A stretch of 34,427 bases of DNA, taken from the IMG/VR virus record IMGVR_UViG_3300005828_000057, positions 1 through 34,427 of that record, one strand, 5' to 3'. Under the pieces are notes generated by a model. That model was not told the origin of the DNA and did no database searches. It was given only the letters and a program-made list of their open reading frames with translations. Below are positions 1 through 34,427 of the stretch, one piece after another. The stretch is from a virus. Position numbers and translations under genes: made by a program. Positions within the stretch are counted from its first letter, which is position 1. Each line of letters begins with the position of its first letter.

Positions 1-8
1 AAGAGCTC
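1..8. repeat. 8-bp terminal direct repeat, left copy (map junction)
   Basis: The first eight bases, AAGAGCTC, are identical to the last eight at 34420-34427. Collapsing them to one copy joins the two parts of the large terminase gene in frame. This suggests a circular or circularly permuted map of 34,419 bp with an assembly overlap, not a biological terminal repeat. GAGCTC is common in this genome, so the repeat alone is weak; the gene continuity is the main support. Confidence 0.75.
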
Positions 9-680
9 AATGACGTTGTCCGGGTACTCGCCGTCGTAAATCGTATAGTGACTGTAATTTCCTTCAATCTCCGCTTGGTTCGCAATGTCGGTGAATTCGT
101 GAGCCGGAGTCCTTGGAGGGGAGCTTGCGACAATGAGCTTGCGACCTTCAACAATATTACCGTCCGGATCGAGGAATTGCGGAAGCGCAATGTCATCAAT
201 TACATAATTCAGATCTGATACGGAGCCTCCCTCGTCAATCAGGAATAGGTCGCACGCGGTTCCGCGAAGGTTGTCGGGATGCTTGTCGAGTCCAGCCAAG
301 TGAATTTCGGAACCATTGTGAGGGAAAAGGAATACCCGCTCCGAAGCCTTGTAAATTGGACGCAAATGCTCCGGGCATCCTCTTAAGACGATGCGCATAA
401 TGGGAAGAATGATTTTCTTAAGGCCCGTTGCCGTTGGAGCTCCATAGCGGACGAGAGCGAATTCCTTGCTCAAACAACACTCAACCGCAAGGGAGCACAA
501 AAGGAAGCTCTTACCGAGGCGTCTTGAGCATTTGATGATGTATTTGAAGCCCGGCCAATCATATATTTTGGCCTTCATTATGCGTTGAACGCGTTTGAAT
601 TTGTATGAGAGGTCTCCGACCTCCCAAGCCCCGGTAATCAGAGTGTCGAGGGTTGCCTCTTTTGGTTCGGGCAAACCCAA
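1..680 (-). CDS. terL: Terminase large subunit, N-terminal ATPase part (continues at 34419)
   Basis: This is the ATPase half of the DNA packaging motor, which docks on the portal and pumps DNA into the prohead. Residues about 51-58 (CSRRLGKS) form the Walker A loop, residues 144-150 (DLFLIDE) the Walker B with catalytic Glu, and IVASSPP near residue 182 looks like motif III. The start is a TTG at 680 preceded by GGAG 12 nt upstream. An in-frame TAG at 684-686 belongs to the previous gene, and the next in-frame ATG would leave only about 16 residues before Walker A. The frame runs off position 1 and resumes at the far end of the window after the 8-bp overlap is collapsed. Total length would then be 485 residues, typical for the family. 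Confidence 0.93.
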   Translation of the reverse strand, partial: MGLPEPKEATLDTLITGAWEVGDLSYKFKRVQRIMKAKIYDWPGFKYIIKCSRRLGKSFLLCSLAVECCLSKEFALVRYGAPTATGLKKIILPIMRIVLRGCPEHLRPIYKASERVFLFPHNGSEIHLAGLDKHPDNLRGTACDLFLIDEGGSVSDLNYVIDDIALPQFLDPDGNIVEGRKLIVASSPPRTPAHEFTDIANQAEIEGNYSHYTIYDGEYPDNVIEL

Positions 681-4841: not shown

Positions 4842-5165
4842 ATGACAAAAACTCAAATTGCGCTCAAGGAATGGCACGCCTCGGCAAGATTACTCGACAA
4901 CCTCGGTCGTTGTTGCTTCCGACGGCACGCTCCAAATTGGGGGCGGGGGTATCATCCCGACAACGAGGTTTGTGCTCGGGAAAACGCATGGAGAAATTAC
5001 GTGCGGCTTCGGGACAACAATCCGTTGTTCCCATTTGTTCAAAAAGAACCGGAGTTCCGGCCGGTCATCGTCAAACGACCTTACGGCGTTTCGCCTGAAT
5101 TGCGTGCGGCCGTTGAGGCCCGGCGAACAATGTTCATCCGTGTTGACGAGGATTACGAGGACTAG
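4842..5165 (+). CDS. Hypothetical protein, 107 aa, end of rightward cluster A
   Basis: A 107-residue protein rich in Arg, Asn and aromatic residues, with CCFRRHAPNWGRGYHPDNEVC near residues 24-44 and an acidic end, RVDEDYED. The Cys/His spacing could hold a metal but matches no motif I know. The ATG at 4842 has no clear ribosome binding site; TAGAAT lies six bases before the start, so a nearly leaderless transcript is possible. Its TAG stop overlaps the protease stop tail to tail through a shared CTAG. Confidence 0.6.
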   Translation: MTKTQIALKEWHASARLLDNLGRCCFRRHAPNWGRGYHPDNEVCARENAWRNYVRLRDNNPLFPFVQKEPEFRPVIVKRPYGVSPELRAAVEARRTMFIRVDEDYED

Positions 5166-6097
5166 TTTTCCAGAATTAAGGCTTCGGGAGCTCTCGACAT
5201 GGGAGGCTCTTTTTTCAAAAGGTAATCCATAACCATATTGAAAATCCCTTCAACCGCACTTGCCGAGTGCGGGTTGCCTTCCTTGAGCTCAATCGTTGTT
5301 TTGTAATATTTGTTTTCGAGAACAATCGCAACCGGCGGGGGCGGAGGAATAGGCGGAGCTCCGCAATCATCCGGCTTCGCGTTGAAGCCGCAAATCTCCG
5401 CTTTGTTGTTCTTCGACCAATCGCTCAAAAAATCTTGTGAATACGAAATATCGAGTCGTGAGAGATACGAGGTTGTTGAAATATTGCCCTTTGAATTCAC
5501 GCCAACAAGCTTTTTGTCCTTGAAAAGCGGACCCCCCGAATCGCCGTAGCAAAGTGCCGCGCCTCCGGGCTCTCTTGTGACTGTGTCATATGTGGTTCGA
5601 CCAACAACGACGGAGTCTCCAATGCGCAATATTCCGTCGTTGCCGCCGCCGCCTCCGGCCTTCACGCAACCGTATCCGGCAAGCGTGACGACCTCTTCGG
5701 TCTCGAGCCGTTTCGAATCAATGCTTGTGGGAACCGCCGCAAATTCCTTGTCCAAAAGTCCGAGCGCAATGTCGTTGTCTCGGTGCGGATATACAGGTGA
5801 GCGAGTCATCTTGGCGGAGTAATCAACGCCTTTGAACGAAAATTTTGAGGTCGCTCCGTCGCTTACACAATGCGATGCCGTGAGCAAAACCCACTTGCCA
5901 ACAACGGTTGCCGTGCAACCTGAATTGCCCGTTCGAATTCGTACGGTTGGCCAATACTGAGGATCTTTCAAATCAACCGGGGTTCCATTTATTAAGGCCT
6001 TTGATTTCGGCTCGACTGGAATTTGTTTTTGAATGGGTTCTTTTGCGCACGCACTTAAGATTGCGAGCAATGCGGTAAATATTAGAGCAAATTTCAT
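5162..6097 (-). CDS. Secreted lipoprotein serine protease, trypsin fold (S1 family)
   Basis: A 311-residue protein. Residues 1-16 are a lipoprotein signal peptide with lipobox LSAC17, so the mature protein would be lipid-anchored. LINGT near residue 35 resembles the activation site of S1 zymogens. The catalytic triad is His76 (TASHC), Asp109 (DNDIAL) and Ser187 (GDSGGP), and the classic Cys61-Cys77 disulfide pair is present. The base of the specificity pocket, six residues before Ser187, is Ala rather than Asp, so trypsin-like Arg/Lys cleavage is not expected; a small or hydrophobic preference is likelier. A PPIPPPPP linker near 248-255 leads to a C-terminal tail of about 55 residues of unknown role. 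The ATG at 6097 follows GAGG. Such proteases are rare in phages and common in predatory Bdellovibrionota. Confidence 0.92.
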   Translation of the reverse strand: MKFALIFTALLAILSACAKEPIQKQIPVEPKSKALINGTPVDLKDPQYWPTVRIRTGNSGCTATVVGKWVLLTASHCVSDGATSKFSFKGVDYSAKMTRSPVYPHRDNDIALGLLDKEFAAVPTSIDSKRLETEEVVTLAGYGCVKAGGGGGNDGILRIGDSVVVGRTTYDTVTREPGGAALCYGDSGGPLFKDKKLVGVNSKGNISTTSYLSRLDISYSQDFLSDWSKNNKAEICGFNAKPDDCGAPPIPPPPPVAIVLENKYYKTTIELKEGNPHSASAVEGIFNMVMDYLLKKEPPMSRAPEALILEN

Positions 6098-6245
6098 TAC
6101 GGCCCCTCGTTTCAAGTCGTCGCCTATTACGCCCCAAAAGCTCTTGTTTTGCAAGTCACTTAAAATGAGCCCTTGCCTCGGACGGTTTTGCAACCTCGAA
6201 GCAAGAGCCCGAGACGAATACCTGAAATTCGGTACGCTTGAAGCT
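6098..6245. other. Intergenic region between replication block and protease
   Basis: These 148 bp upstream of the protease hold no ORF I could support. On the minus strand the nonamer TTGCAAAAC occurs twice. The copy nearer the gene begins TTGCAA and is followed 19 bp later by TAATAG, a weak promoter candidate for the protease. No clear terminator hairpin follows the gene ending at 6246. Confidence 0.35.
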
Positions 6246-14012: not shown

Positions 14013-14243
14013 TCAGTCTATACGAAATAGCAAATTTGTATAATCATCCCATGACATGCAAACGAAATCGCCAATATTTTCGGCGGCGCACGATATCATC
14101 GCGTTTTCTTGTTGGCGACGAATTGCCATGATTTCCGGATCGGGTATCCAAAGGCGAGGAAGCCTCAAGGTTGAGTCCGGAGGCTTGTGAGCGCAACCAA
14201 GTACAAGAAAAAGGGTCAAAATTTGTAGCAAATTACGCCCCAT
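14013..14243 (-). CDS. Small lipoprotein, 76 aa, possible outer-membrane spanin
   Basis: A 76-residue protein with a lipoprotein signal peptide: MGRNLLQILTLFLVLGC, where LVLGC is the lipobox and Cys17 the lipidation site. The mature part starts CAHKPPDSTLRLPRL, then has two further Cys and an acidic end. A short lipoprotein in the lysis region of a Gram-negative phage suggests an Rz1-type o-spanin, although the mature part is less Pro-rich than usual. The ATG at 14243 has GGAG seven bases upstream and overlaps the previous gene by 11 nt. Confidence 0.7.
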   Translation of the reverse strand: MGRNLLQILTLFLVLGCAHKPPDSTLRLPRLWIPDPEIMAIRRQQENAMISCAAENIGDFVCMSWDDYTNLLFRID

Positions 14244-14756: not shown

Positions 14757-15162
14757 TTTTCCTCCGGTTTTTTGGGGTAATTGTTTCGCGGAGTTTTGGC
14801 CGACGCCAAGTGCCCTCCCAAACTTCCAATTGCCCCGGTCCTTGTTTTCTCCAAGTCCTTTCACGCTCAATATACGAACGCGTCCGGACGCCTTTTGCTT
14901 CAACCCATAATGTCTTACCATTCTTAAGGGTCACTGAAAAATCAACTTTGTAATTAAGAGGTGATGCTCCACAATGTGGACATTCCTCTCGAAGTCGAAC
15001 GACGGATTGCATCTTAATATCACTCAACTCGCCCGCGAGTTCGCGGAGCTTCAATAGTCCATACACGGCGGCTTCAAGAGCACTCGGGAATGTAATGCCG
15101 TCAACGACCGTTTCACGCGCACGGAACTTGTGCTTTTTCTTCGGCTTCCAGTTGTTTAGAAT
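14731..15162 (-). CDS. DUF1064-like endonuclease, 143 aa, probable ATT start
   Basis: A 143-residue protein: HKFRARETVVDGITFPSALEA near the start, VRLREECPHCGASPLNYKVDFSV in the middle and LWVEAKG later. The F.S.LEA...L, V.Y..DF and V.D/E.KG order matches the DUF1064 group of phage nucleases of the PD-(D/E)xK/VRR type, which act on branched or damaged DNA. An extra CPHC pair is inserted in the middle. The frame has no ATG near its beginning. An ATT at 15162, overlapping the amidase stop as TAATT and preceded by AGAGAGG at good spacing, is my choice. A TTG at 15210 without a ribosome binding site is the alternative and gives 159 residues. Confidence 0.7.
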   Translation of the reverse strand: MLNNWKPKKKHKFRARETVVDGITFPSALEAAVYGLLKLRELAGELSDIKMQSVVRLREECPHCGASPLNYKVDFSVTLKNGKTLWVEAKGVRTRSYIERERTWRKQGPGQLEVWEGTWRRPKLRETITPKNRRKNGNRNKTS

Positions 15163-15578
15163 TACGGCCTCTCTCGTTCGTTGTTCCCATTGAAATATTC
15201 TACGAGCCAACCATAGTCAAAGGCGGGGCATAATGTTGGTTCGAACTCACGATGCCCGTGCAATGACGCGTTGGGGAATGTAATTTTTAATACCGGCAAA
15301 AGAACGAATCGAAGCGAAGCCAATTGCTTTGGCGTCGGATGACCGTCGCCCGCATAACAGATCCCAACCGAGGTTGAATTGTAGCCCTTGCAATGAGCTC
15401 CCGTCTCTTGGAGAGGTCTCCCCATTTCGATATACCCATTCATTCTAATAAAATAATGATACCCGATCCCGTTGATAAACCCGCGTTGCGTGCGGTGAAT
15501 TCTATCTATCCAATCGGCGGTTTGATTCTCGTAAGTACTTGCCGAATGATGAATTATAATCCGGCGGATTTTTCTCAA
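15162..15578 (-). CDS. N-acetylmuramoyl-L-alanine amidase, endolysin (Amidase_2, T7 lysozyme-like)
   Basis: A 138-residue single-domain amidase. It hydrolyses the bond between N-acetylmuramic acid and L-alanine in peptidoglycan at the end of infection. Zinc ligands are in IIIHHS (His10 or His11) and HREFEPTLC (His109 and Cys117), with the T7-like seven-residue spacing. The catalytic Tyr is in GYHYF (Tyr40). The T7 catalytic Lys two before the Cys is Thr115, as in many relatives. There is no signal peptide, so a holin or other membrane factor is needed for release. The start is TTG at 15578 directly after the TAG of the upstream gene, with AGGGG before it. Confidence 0.92.
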   Translation of the reverse strand: MRKIRRIIIHHSASTYENQTADWIDRIHRTQRGFINGIGYHYFIRMNGYIEMGRPLQETGAHCKGYNSTSVGICYAGDGHPTPKQLASLRFVLLPVLKITFPNASLHGHREFEPTLCPAFDYGWLVEYFNGNNERERP

Positions 15579-33641: not shown

Positions 33642-34427
33642 TCAACGGCGCGGCTTTTTCACGCCGAACCCTTCACGAATTTTTTGCGCTGTGTTTTTTT
33701 CTTCCTCAACAAAAAACCGATCCTTGTTTGATTTACCGTATCGAGGCGGCACTGGGTTCTTATAATCGTTGACATTGCGAATCAAATACATGAGCGCCGC
33801 AAAAGCATCAAAATGCCCGTACGCTTTTGTTCGAGCGAAATCCGTTCGTTTGTCGTTCCATACTCCAAACCGGAGGCAACCGAGCAATTGTTTGCACTTT
33901 GGAGAGACTCGAAGCCTTCCGTCTCCAACCCAAACCCGAACCTTGTTGACCATTTCGTCAAGCGATCCCTTGTTCGTTGCTTGGAAGCGAATCTCATGGA
34001 GAATTCTTAAGTCGTTGATGAGCTTCAAATCAATATCGGAGACCCTTGTGATTGAGCGTTCGAGCTCTCTCGGGTCGTCTCCGTCAAAATTGAGTTCGAA
34101 ATTTACGCGTTCGAGCTCTTTGATGCCGTTGGCGACCGTGAGGGTCGTCATGTCCGGGCCGGAGACGGAAAACTCGTCATGTATAAAGAGACAAGCCCGG
34201 CGGAAATCATAATGCCCAACGAGGCATACAGTGAGATCGCGCACGCCAATATCGAGAGCGTCATATTTGAAATAGAAGCGGAAGTATTCATCGAGTTCAA
34301 TCTCCGTTTCGTATGAGTCATCCCATTCCCTCACAAGTGCAAAGTTCTCGTCAACGACGTCTTGCGCCAAATATTCCCGCTTCCAAGTCGTTGAGTTTTT
34401 GCCGCCAGCCTCTTTTTTGAAGAGCTC
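33642..34427 (-). CDS. terL: Terminase large subunit, C-terminal nuclease part (continues from position 1)
   Basis: This is the rest of the large terminase frame, starting with a TWKREYLAQDVVDENF segment that normally links ATPase and nuclease domains. The nuclease has RNase H-fold features: YDALDIGVRD with a first acidic residue, SDIDLKLIND in the middle, and GHFDAFAALMYLI with a last Asp, as in other large terminases. It cuts concatemeric DNA at the start and end of packaging. An internal ATG at 34370 is not the start; the frame is open to the window end and joins position 1 after the 8-bp overlap is removed. The gene ends with TGA at 33642. Confidence 0.92.
   Translation of the reverse strand, partial: ELFKKEAGGKNSTTWKREYLAQDVVDENFALVREWDDSYETEIELDEYFRFYFKYDALDIGVRDLTVCLVGHYDFRRACLFIHDEFSVSGPDMTTLTVANGIKELERVNFELNFDGDDPRELERSITRVSDIDLKLINDLRILHEIRFQATNKGSLDEMVNKVRVWVGDGRLRVSPKCKQLLGCLRFGVWNDKRTDFARTKAYGHFDAFAALMYLIRNVNDYKNPVPPRYGKSNKDRFFVEEEKNTAQKIREGFGVKKPRR
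34420..34427. repeat. 8-bp terminal direct repeat, right copy (map junction)
   Basis: AAGAGCTC, identical to positions 1-8. Removing one copy restores the large terminase reading frame; a simple head-to-tail join without overlap would shift it. Confidence 0.75.

Follow-up and report, generated by a model that had tools for sequence, protein, structure and literature searches.

The protease gene and its genome

A gene for a predicted S1A protease zymogen of 311 residues lies on the minus strand at positions 5162..6097 of the window, the whole stretch of 34,427 nucleotides that was analysed. The frame, read from 6097 to the stop codon at 5162-5164, is intact, and the plus strand over the same span is full of stops. 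The original prediction had set the limits of this ORF exactly and left the strand unstated. The sequence GAGGGG (6103..6108, minus strand), 5 nt before the ATG, is a likely ribosome-binding site. The gene overlaps by 4 nt the end of a convergent plus-strand ORF at 4842-5165. A promoter scan near the protease gene found fewer sites than were found in shuffles.

The window is an entire IMG/VR virus record, and its two ends have 8 bp in common. Joining them restores a single intact terminase frame, in which the C-terminal part of the large subunit (33642..34427, minus strand) continues across the circular ends into 680..1. The window thus represents the whole of a circular genome of about 34.4 kb. 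The genome also encodes a portal, a capsid, an Erf-like annealing protein and a DnaD-like loader, as well as an amidase endolysin (15162..15578, minus strand) that is not adjacent to the protease gene, and a small lipoprotein with a weak match to spanins (14013..14243, minus strand; phrog_812, E=0.0037). No tyrosine integrase was found in the window.

CTG and CAG are five-fold depleted over positions 1-34427 (0.21 of expected) and in all three gene frames, and CTGCAG is absent (3.7 expected). This depletion was seen in no relative or putative host contig examined; possible causes are the avoidance of a short DNA motif, or a codon or tRNA effect. The protease gene has six occurrences of CTG plus CAG, as compared with a genome mean of 3.9 (sd 2.2) per 936 nt and about 20 expected per 936 nt without depletion. 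Because the depletion matches that of the genome, the gene appears to have resided there for long, as had been predicted from the rarity of the two triplets, and not to be a recent capture.

The protein is a member of peptidase family S1A with an uncharged pocket

The window protein matches the Pfam family Trypsin (PF00089) with E=1.8e-16 and 61.1 bits, the cut-off being 20.6 bits. An AlphaFold model, for which 12 phage homologues served as input, has a mean pLDDT of 77, with most of the protease core at 90-97. A Foldseek comparison of the model with the PDB ranked S1A proteases and homologous proteins first (E about 1e-11 to 1e-9, TM-score by target about 0.7), the best being crab collagenase, neutrophil elastase, chymotrypsin and trypsins. 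Pfam, the alignment, the model and Foldseek together place the catalytic domain at residues 35-246 (5360..5995, minus strand). Within it, the triad of His76 (5870..5872), Asp109 (5771..5773) and Ser187, in GDSGG (5537..5539), and Ala181 (5555..5557), the counterpart of chymotrypsin position 189 at the base of the S1 pocket, all on the minus strand, were read from the sequence, aligned with 17 distinct phage homologues. As had been noted, Ala181 lies six residues before Ser187, and position 189 is Ala in 15, Val in two and Asn in one of the 18 phage members. The Asp that marks trypsin-type specificity is replaced by this Ala in the window copy; an identity as a trypsin was therefore rejected, and the proposed non-trypsin pocket stands. 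By its motifs and modelled fold the protein is a member of family S1A, with a predicted proteolytic activity. It has in common with chymotrypsin, elastase and trypsin (PF00089) the fold, the triad, the GDSGG motif and an activation site with the motif of a new N-terminus. Unlike typical S1A enzymes, it has Ala and not Asp at position 189, a cysteine set of its own (GYGC; C-terminal CG..C), a lipobox in the propeptide and a phage tail segment.

The anchored form should be the zymogen

Residues 1-16 (MKFALIFTALLAILSA; 6050..6097, minus strand) form a predicted signal peptide, with a helix at residues 3-15 in the model. Lipoboxes are recognized by a consensus rule, which L-S-A-C at residues 14-17 follows, so that Cys17 (6047..6049, minus strand) is the predicted site of lipid attachment. 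From the lipid anchor to the activation site runs a propeptide, delimited by alignment at residues 18-34 (5996..6046, minus strand). The predicted activation cleavage, between Ala34 and Leu35 (5993..5998, minus strand), was placed by alignment and by a table of the residues before the cut. It precedes the motif LING, the counterpart of chymotrypsin IVGG, of which L35, I36 and G38 are invariant in the 12 phage members aligned. In chymotrypsin-type activation, a cut before residue 16 yields a free N-terminus that pairs with Asp194. The window protein has the layout of such a zymogen, a propeptide followed by Ala34 and the LING motif common to the family, and its cleavage is predicted on that ground.

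Cys17, with its putative lipid, lies on the N-terminal side of the predicted cut. All six remaining cysteines belong to the conserved set of the catalytic domain, which would leave none to link the propeptide to the enzyme. Since the lipobox lies before this cut, it is the zymogen that should be anchored, and activation should set the active enzyme free. A clear lipobox was found in four of the 18 phage members (the window, L127, L133 and L148), most of the others having a plain signal peptide; thus, export signals are found throughout the family but the lipidation signal is not conserved across it. The protein had been described as a lipid-anchored protease. The lipobox is indeed present, but the anchor is predicted on the zymogen and not on the active enzyme, and is a trait of a minority of the phage copies.

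Among the 18 phage copies, 14 have Thr, Ala, Val or Gly immediately before the cut and one has Arg or Lys; of the 10 bacterial copies, which are not all independent, six have Arg or Lys there (the excess of Arg or Lys weakens to p=0.05 with one bacterial clade counted once). A site with Thr, Ala, Val or Gly before the cut could be cleavable by the enzyme itself, given its uncharged pocket.

The C-terminal tail

The model divides the tail, residues 246-311 (5165..5362, minus strand), into a polyproline linker and a predicted beta-beta-alpha segment, the latter with a pLDDT of about 85 when folded together with similar tails. Similar tails occur in L125, L133, L134, L148, the bacterial L053 and perhaps L151. 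Another type, Cys-helix-Cys, is present in L126, L129, L130, L131, L146, L150 and L153, and in the remaining phage members the tail is absent or short. The window tail matched no Pfam family or PDB fold. In leave-one-out tests of a shared beta-beta-alpha tail, support was strong for L133 and L053 and weak for the window and L125 (3 and 1 of 1000 shuffles, respectively, were as good); L151 had no support, so that the case for a common origin of all the beta-beta-alpha tails is uneven. Any role of the tail in targeting or binding is a guess. Altogether, the sequence, Pfam, the AlphaFold model and the alignment confirm the predicted S1 protease with a lipobox, an activation site, a full triad and a proline-linked tail.

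A subfamily of phage-borne proteases

Profile searches of viral contigs identified 18 distinct phage members of one subfamily, the window included and two near-identical records merged; the scans match exact short patterns, so that member counts are lower bounds, and the status of the members as phages rests partly on IMG/VR. The triad is intact in all 18. The mature enzyme begins with Leu-Ile in all members, followed by [GN]-G in nearly all, L147 being an exception. Further signatures of the subfamily are six kept cysteines, one in G[YF]GC and two in the C-terminal CG...C, and the motif CxGDSGG.

With the window protein and L126 as queries, no match was found among 50,697 annotated phage records, and a third member (L130) gave one distant match in annotated phages. 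The serine protease of the Rhodococcus phage Shagrat (OQ938576) is S1-like and shows 24% identity to L130 only, with no match to the window protein, and the phage-encoded, S1-like PHROG 9683 'protease' gave a distant, partial match (E=6.6e-7). Scans of viral and genome contigs with single sequences gave no match, because this method detects close relatives only; the profiles succeeded. A protease of this kind had been thought very unusual in a phage. This agrees with the annotated records as searched with the window protein and L126, but not with IMG/VR, in which at least 17 other distinct records carry the subfamily. In the window's own phage group, the protease was present in one of 30 virus records sharing a tail gene, that of the window; it was not found in the Silvanigrella phage, and one further record of the group gave a weak match of 27 residues only.

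L152 is similar to the members but was left out of the count. It has no catalytic His in its S1 part and runs into a subtilase-like part, the two appearing fused in an 890-aa protein (L152:10756-13428). S1 relatives followed immediately by a gene of one cluster were also seen at L011, L013, L057, L059, L060 and L061; the member of this cluster that was scanned, L059, is a subtilase (S8). Such pairs of an S1 gene and a gene of the subtilase cluster occur in Pseudomonadota and in an Acidobacteria MAG.

Exchange of the gene with bacteria

The best bacterial matches were to Bdellovibrionales, Oligoflexales and 'Deltaproteobacteria' MAGs, and the neighbours of several bacterial copies are ordinary chromosomal genes. 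A maximum-likelihood tree placed the window copy in a clade with 100/96 support, together with eight bacterial copies, the phage copies L125, L129 and L134, and one unclear contig. The bacterial copies in this clade (L045-L051, L055) belong to the same subfamily, the nearest being 44-50% identical to the window protein. They differ from it in that several have extensions of about 300 aa, putatively Ig-like, that most have Arg or Lys before the cut, that the nearest ones are without a lipobox, and that their neighbours are chromosomal. A single phage origin of the proteases was rejected (p-AU about 6e-48 against keeping the phage copies together), and strongly supported branches force at least four phage/bacterium changes. 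From this rejection and from the interspersed phage and Bdellovibrionota copies in the tree we conclude that the gene has been exchanged repeatedly and, on these sequence comparisons, that it moves between hosts and phages. Structure prediction and a phylogeny with bacterial S1 proteases had been suggested as a check on the original prediction; the former returned an S1A fold, and in the latter the window copy clusters with chromosomal copies of Bdellovibrionota.

The host of the phage

Two sister phages have capsid proteins 66-68% identical to that of the window. Among the 50,697 annotated phage records, only one, a phage recorded for Silvanigrella aquatica, matched the capsid and portal. A profile of the 828-aa tail protein gave two matches in 369 genomes of the phylum of L047, a Bdellovibrionales bacterium. 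On both contigs the phage genes are flanked by housekeeping genes (apparently pyruvate kinase, genes of guanine synthesis and dnaE on one contig, glmS/glmU on the other, as judged by eye). The two prophages, both in Bdellovibrionota chromosomes, are the closest cell-linked relatives of the window's phage; their residue identity to the window is 40-42% for the capsid and 46-48% for the tail protein. The profile also matched one of 58 genomes in a second phylum, which contains Oligoflexales, and gave two weaker matches in a sample of 398 genomes of Pseudomonadota; the matches do not single out one exclusive host phylum for the phage group. We consider a Bdellovibrionota-type host likely. The original prediction had raised the possibility that the host is a bacterial predator. 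The prophages and the tail profile point to a phylum that contains predators, and the host itself may be one.

Separately, a prophage of the window's group in a chromosome of the Bdellovibrionota phylum (L193; G275:C4:25000-44500) reads TAG as a sense codon. Its tail gene has 13 in-frame TAG, and its coding density rises from 0.66 with the standard code to 0.92 with TAG read-through, while the flanks gain nothing.

Position of the gene relative to lysis genes

In L127 and L131 the protease gene comes immediately after that of an SLT lysozyme. Its position in L146 and L150 is between the structural genes and a lysis set formed by an Rz-like protein (a weak match, in L150), a holin-like small membrane protein and an M15 endolysin. 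In total, it is on the same strand as, and within 1.5 kb of, a cell-wall hydrolase gene in four of the 11 phages with a located hydrolase, a placement with a chance of about 0.003, or of 0.02 with L146 and L150 counted once, the enrichment resting on three independent lineages. In the window, the protease gene is about 9 kb from that of the endolysin and outside the lysis region. In L153 its direct neighbour, on the opposite strand, encodes an NlpC/P60 protein that may belong to the tail. The protease is frequently a lone gene whose neighbours are on the other strand, as in L010, L128, L130, L132 and L133. No operon partner common to all the phages was found. Several functions had been proposed originally; the position of the gene in relatives favours lysis or egress among them, but does not narrow the list to one.

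Possible roles of the protease

In the known lysis systems of phages that infect Gram-negative bacteria, the wall is cut and membranes are fused or disrupted. We tentatively propose that the phage protein is an exported S1A zymogen that serves at egress and whose gene has passed between phages and hosts of the Bdellovibrionota type. We infer the activation, release, timing, substrate and lysis role of the enzyme as follows. The signal peptide would export the protein, Cys17 would be lipidated, and the inactive zymogen would be tethered to the membrane. Cleavage before Leu35 would activate the enzyme through its new N-terminus, in the manner of chymotrypsin, and would also free it from its anchor, since no spare cysteine links the propeptide to the catalytic domain. 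Most phage copies have Thr, Ala, Val or Gly ahead of the cut, which together with the uncharged pocket would permit self-activation. The freed protease would then break envelope proteins and so help to open the host; if the host sits inside prey, it would also open the prey ghost.

In support of a use at egress we count the S1A fold, the triad kept in every phage member, the export signals, the lysis-region placement in four of 11 phages, the residues before the cut, and the precedent of Bd2269, a secreted protease of Bdellovibrio bacteriovorus by which E. coli is lysed from within and exit from the prey is hastened (PMC12546842). Bd2269 resembles the proposed enzyme as a secreted serine protease that helps exit, but it is an analogue only, a subtilase (S8) encoded by a bacterial gene and not homologous to the window protease. 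Spanins and other outer-membrane lysis proteins (PMC6139136) are likewise exported, some are lipoproteins, and they are encoded in the lysis region and needed after the wall is cut; spanins are not enzymes, whereas the window protein would act by proteolysis. Against egress count the 9 kb that separate the gene from the window endolysin, the lone copies on the opposite strand, and the lack of conservation of lipidation. The lysis reading is therefore favoured, but not as general across phages, and in the window's group the protease is not needed for lysis, because a single one of the 30 virus records has it. It is unlikely, in our estimate, that the more specific form of the proposal applies, in which phages of Bdellovibrionota, possibly of predatory ones, employ for lysis a proteolytic factor that is kept on the envelope as an S1 zymogen, activates and releases itself by its own cleavage and, when the host lyses, attacks envelope proteins, those of the prey ghost around it included, so that virions escape two nested cells. 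The literature searched yielded no phage enzyme of this tethered, self-activating kind, and neither a phage S1 lysis protease nor proteases of Bdellovibrio phages.

Possible, if somewhat doubtful, is that the gene is a digestive auxiliary gene, by which a host-type protease would sustain the breakdown of prey or external protein during host shut-off and feed phage production. Its nearest bacterial relatives are found on chromosomes of Bdellovibrionota, in which secreted proteases abound (PMC7174725), the gene was exchanged with hosts repeatedly, and three S1-bearing records also have a papain-like protease, one of these records a gene with a metzincin motif as well, as if proteolysis were selected. 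Constant secretion into prey would, however, agree poorly with how the window copy is built, as a zymogen with a lipid anchor, the lysis-region position in several relatives argues against this role, and that the hosts are predators had no support in this analysis.

Rather unlikely is a moron, an independently expressed, exported enzyme that trims surface receptors or alters the infected or lysogenic cell, by superinfection exclusion or lysogenic conversion. The frequent occurrence of the protease as a lone gene opposite to the strand of its neighbours, and its patchiness in the window's phage group, would agree with a moron, as would the tyrosine integrase in the L128 and L131 records, the occurrence of relatives of the window phage as prophages, and the known involvement of phage lipoproteins in superinfection exclusion in other systems (PMC3952083). 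Yet no tyrosine integrase was found in the window or in most carriers, there is no shared partner gene, and a released enzyme would be a poor receptor guard.

It is very improbable that the gene is a captured passenger, useless to the phage and little expressed. It is an accessory gene within the window's phage group, as a passenger would be, but its frame, ribosome-binding site and triad are intact, the triad is so in all phage members, and a depletion of CTG and CAG like that of the genome argues for a long time under the phage's own sequence bias. Finally, although structural proteases are common in phages, a virion or prohead maturation protease can be dismissed almost entirely, as the original prediction implied: the signal peptide and lipobox would direct the protein out of the cytoplasm, where virions are built, which makes a role inside the virion unlikely, and the gene is absent from 29 of the 30 group records, including both phages with a capsid 66-68% identical to that of the window.

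The enzyme belongs to an old family; what appears undescribed in the literature searched is the subfamily borne by phages, together with its exchange with Bdellovibrionota and its tethered-zymogen layout. If the use at egress is borne out, a recurrent, exchangeable, exported protease would add a proteolytic step to the known lysis systems. Phages of predatory bacteria have hardly been studied, as the single match to the window capsid and portal among the annotated records illustrates. Its signature cysteines, activation site and tails define the subfamily well enough for expression testing, which makes testable the question of how a phage leaves a host that is possibly inside prey.

Other proteins encoded near the protease or by its carriers

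A family of proteins of about 320 aa without a Pfam match is encoded at L146:6678-7640, L150:709-1668 and L131:6033-7031. It has a lipobox in L146 and L150, where its gene lies directly before the S1 gene; in L131 it lies 2 kb before. L125 and L126, otherwise different phages, share beside the S1 gene an exported-looking family (L125:8786-9478, L126:8966-9868), also without a Pfam match. Loci of papain-like or zinc-motif proteins of S1-bearing phages are L125:7755-8705, L133:8026-9165, L190:1297-2169 and L147:12857-13762. The numbers are too small to make a case for a regular co-carriage of papain-like proteases (three of about 20 S1-bearing and no S1-negative records). Of the papain-like proteases in these three phages, one is a likely lipoprotein and one has a C-terminal membrane segment. 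The L147 phage also encodes a signal-peptide protein with the metzincin zinc motif HELGHEMGLGH, for which Pfam gave no match.
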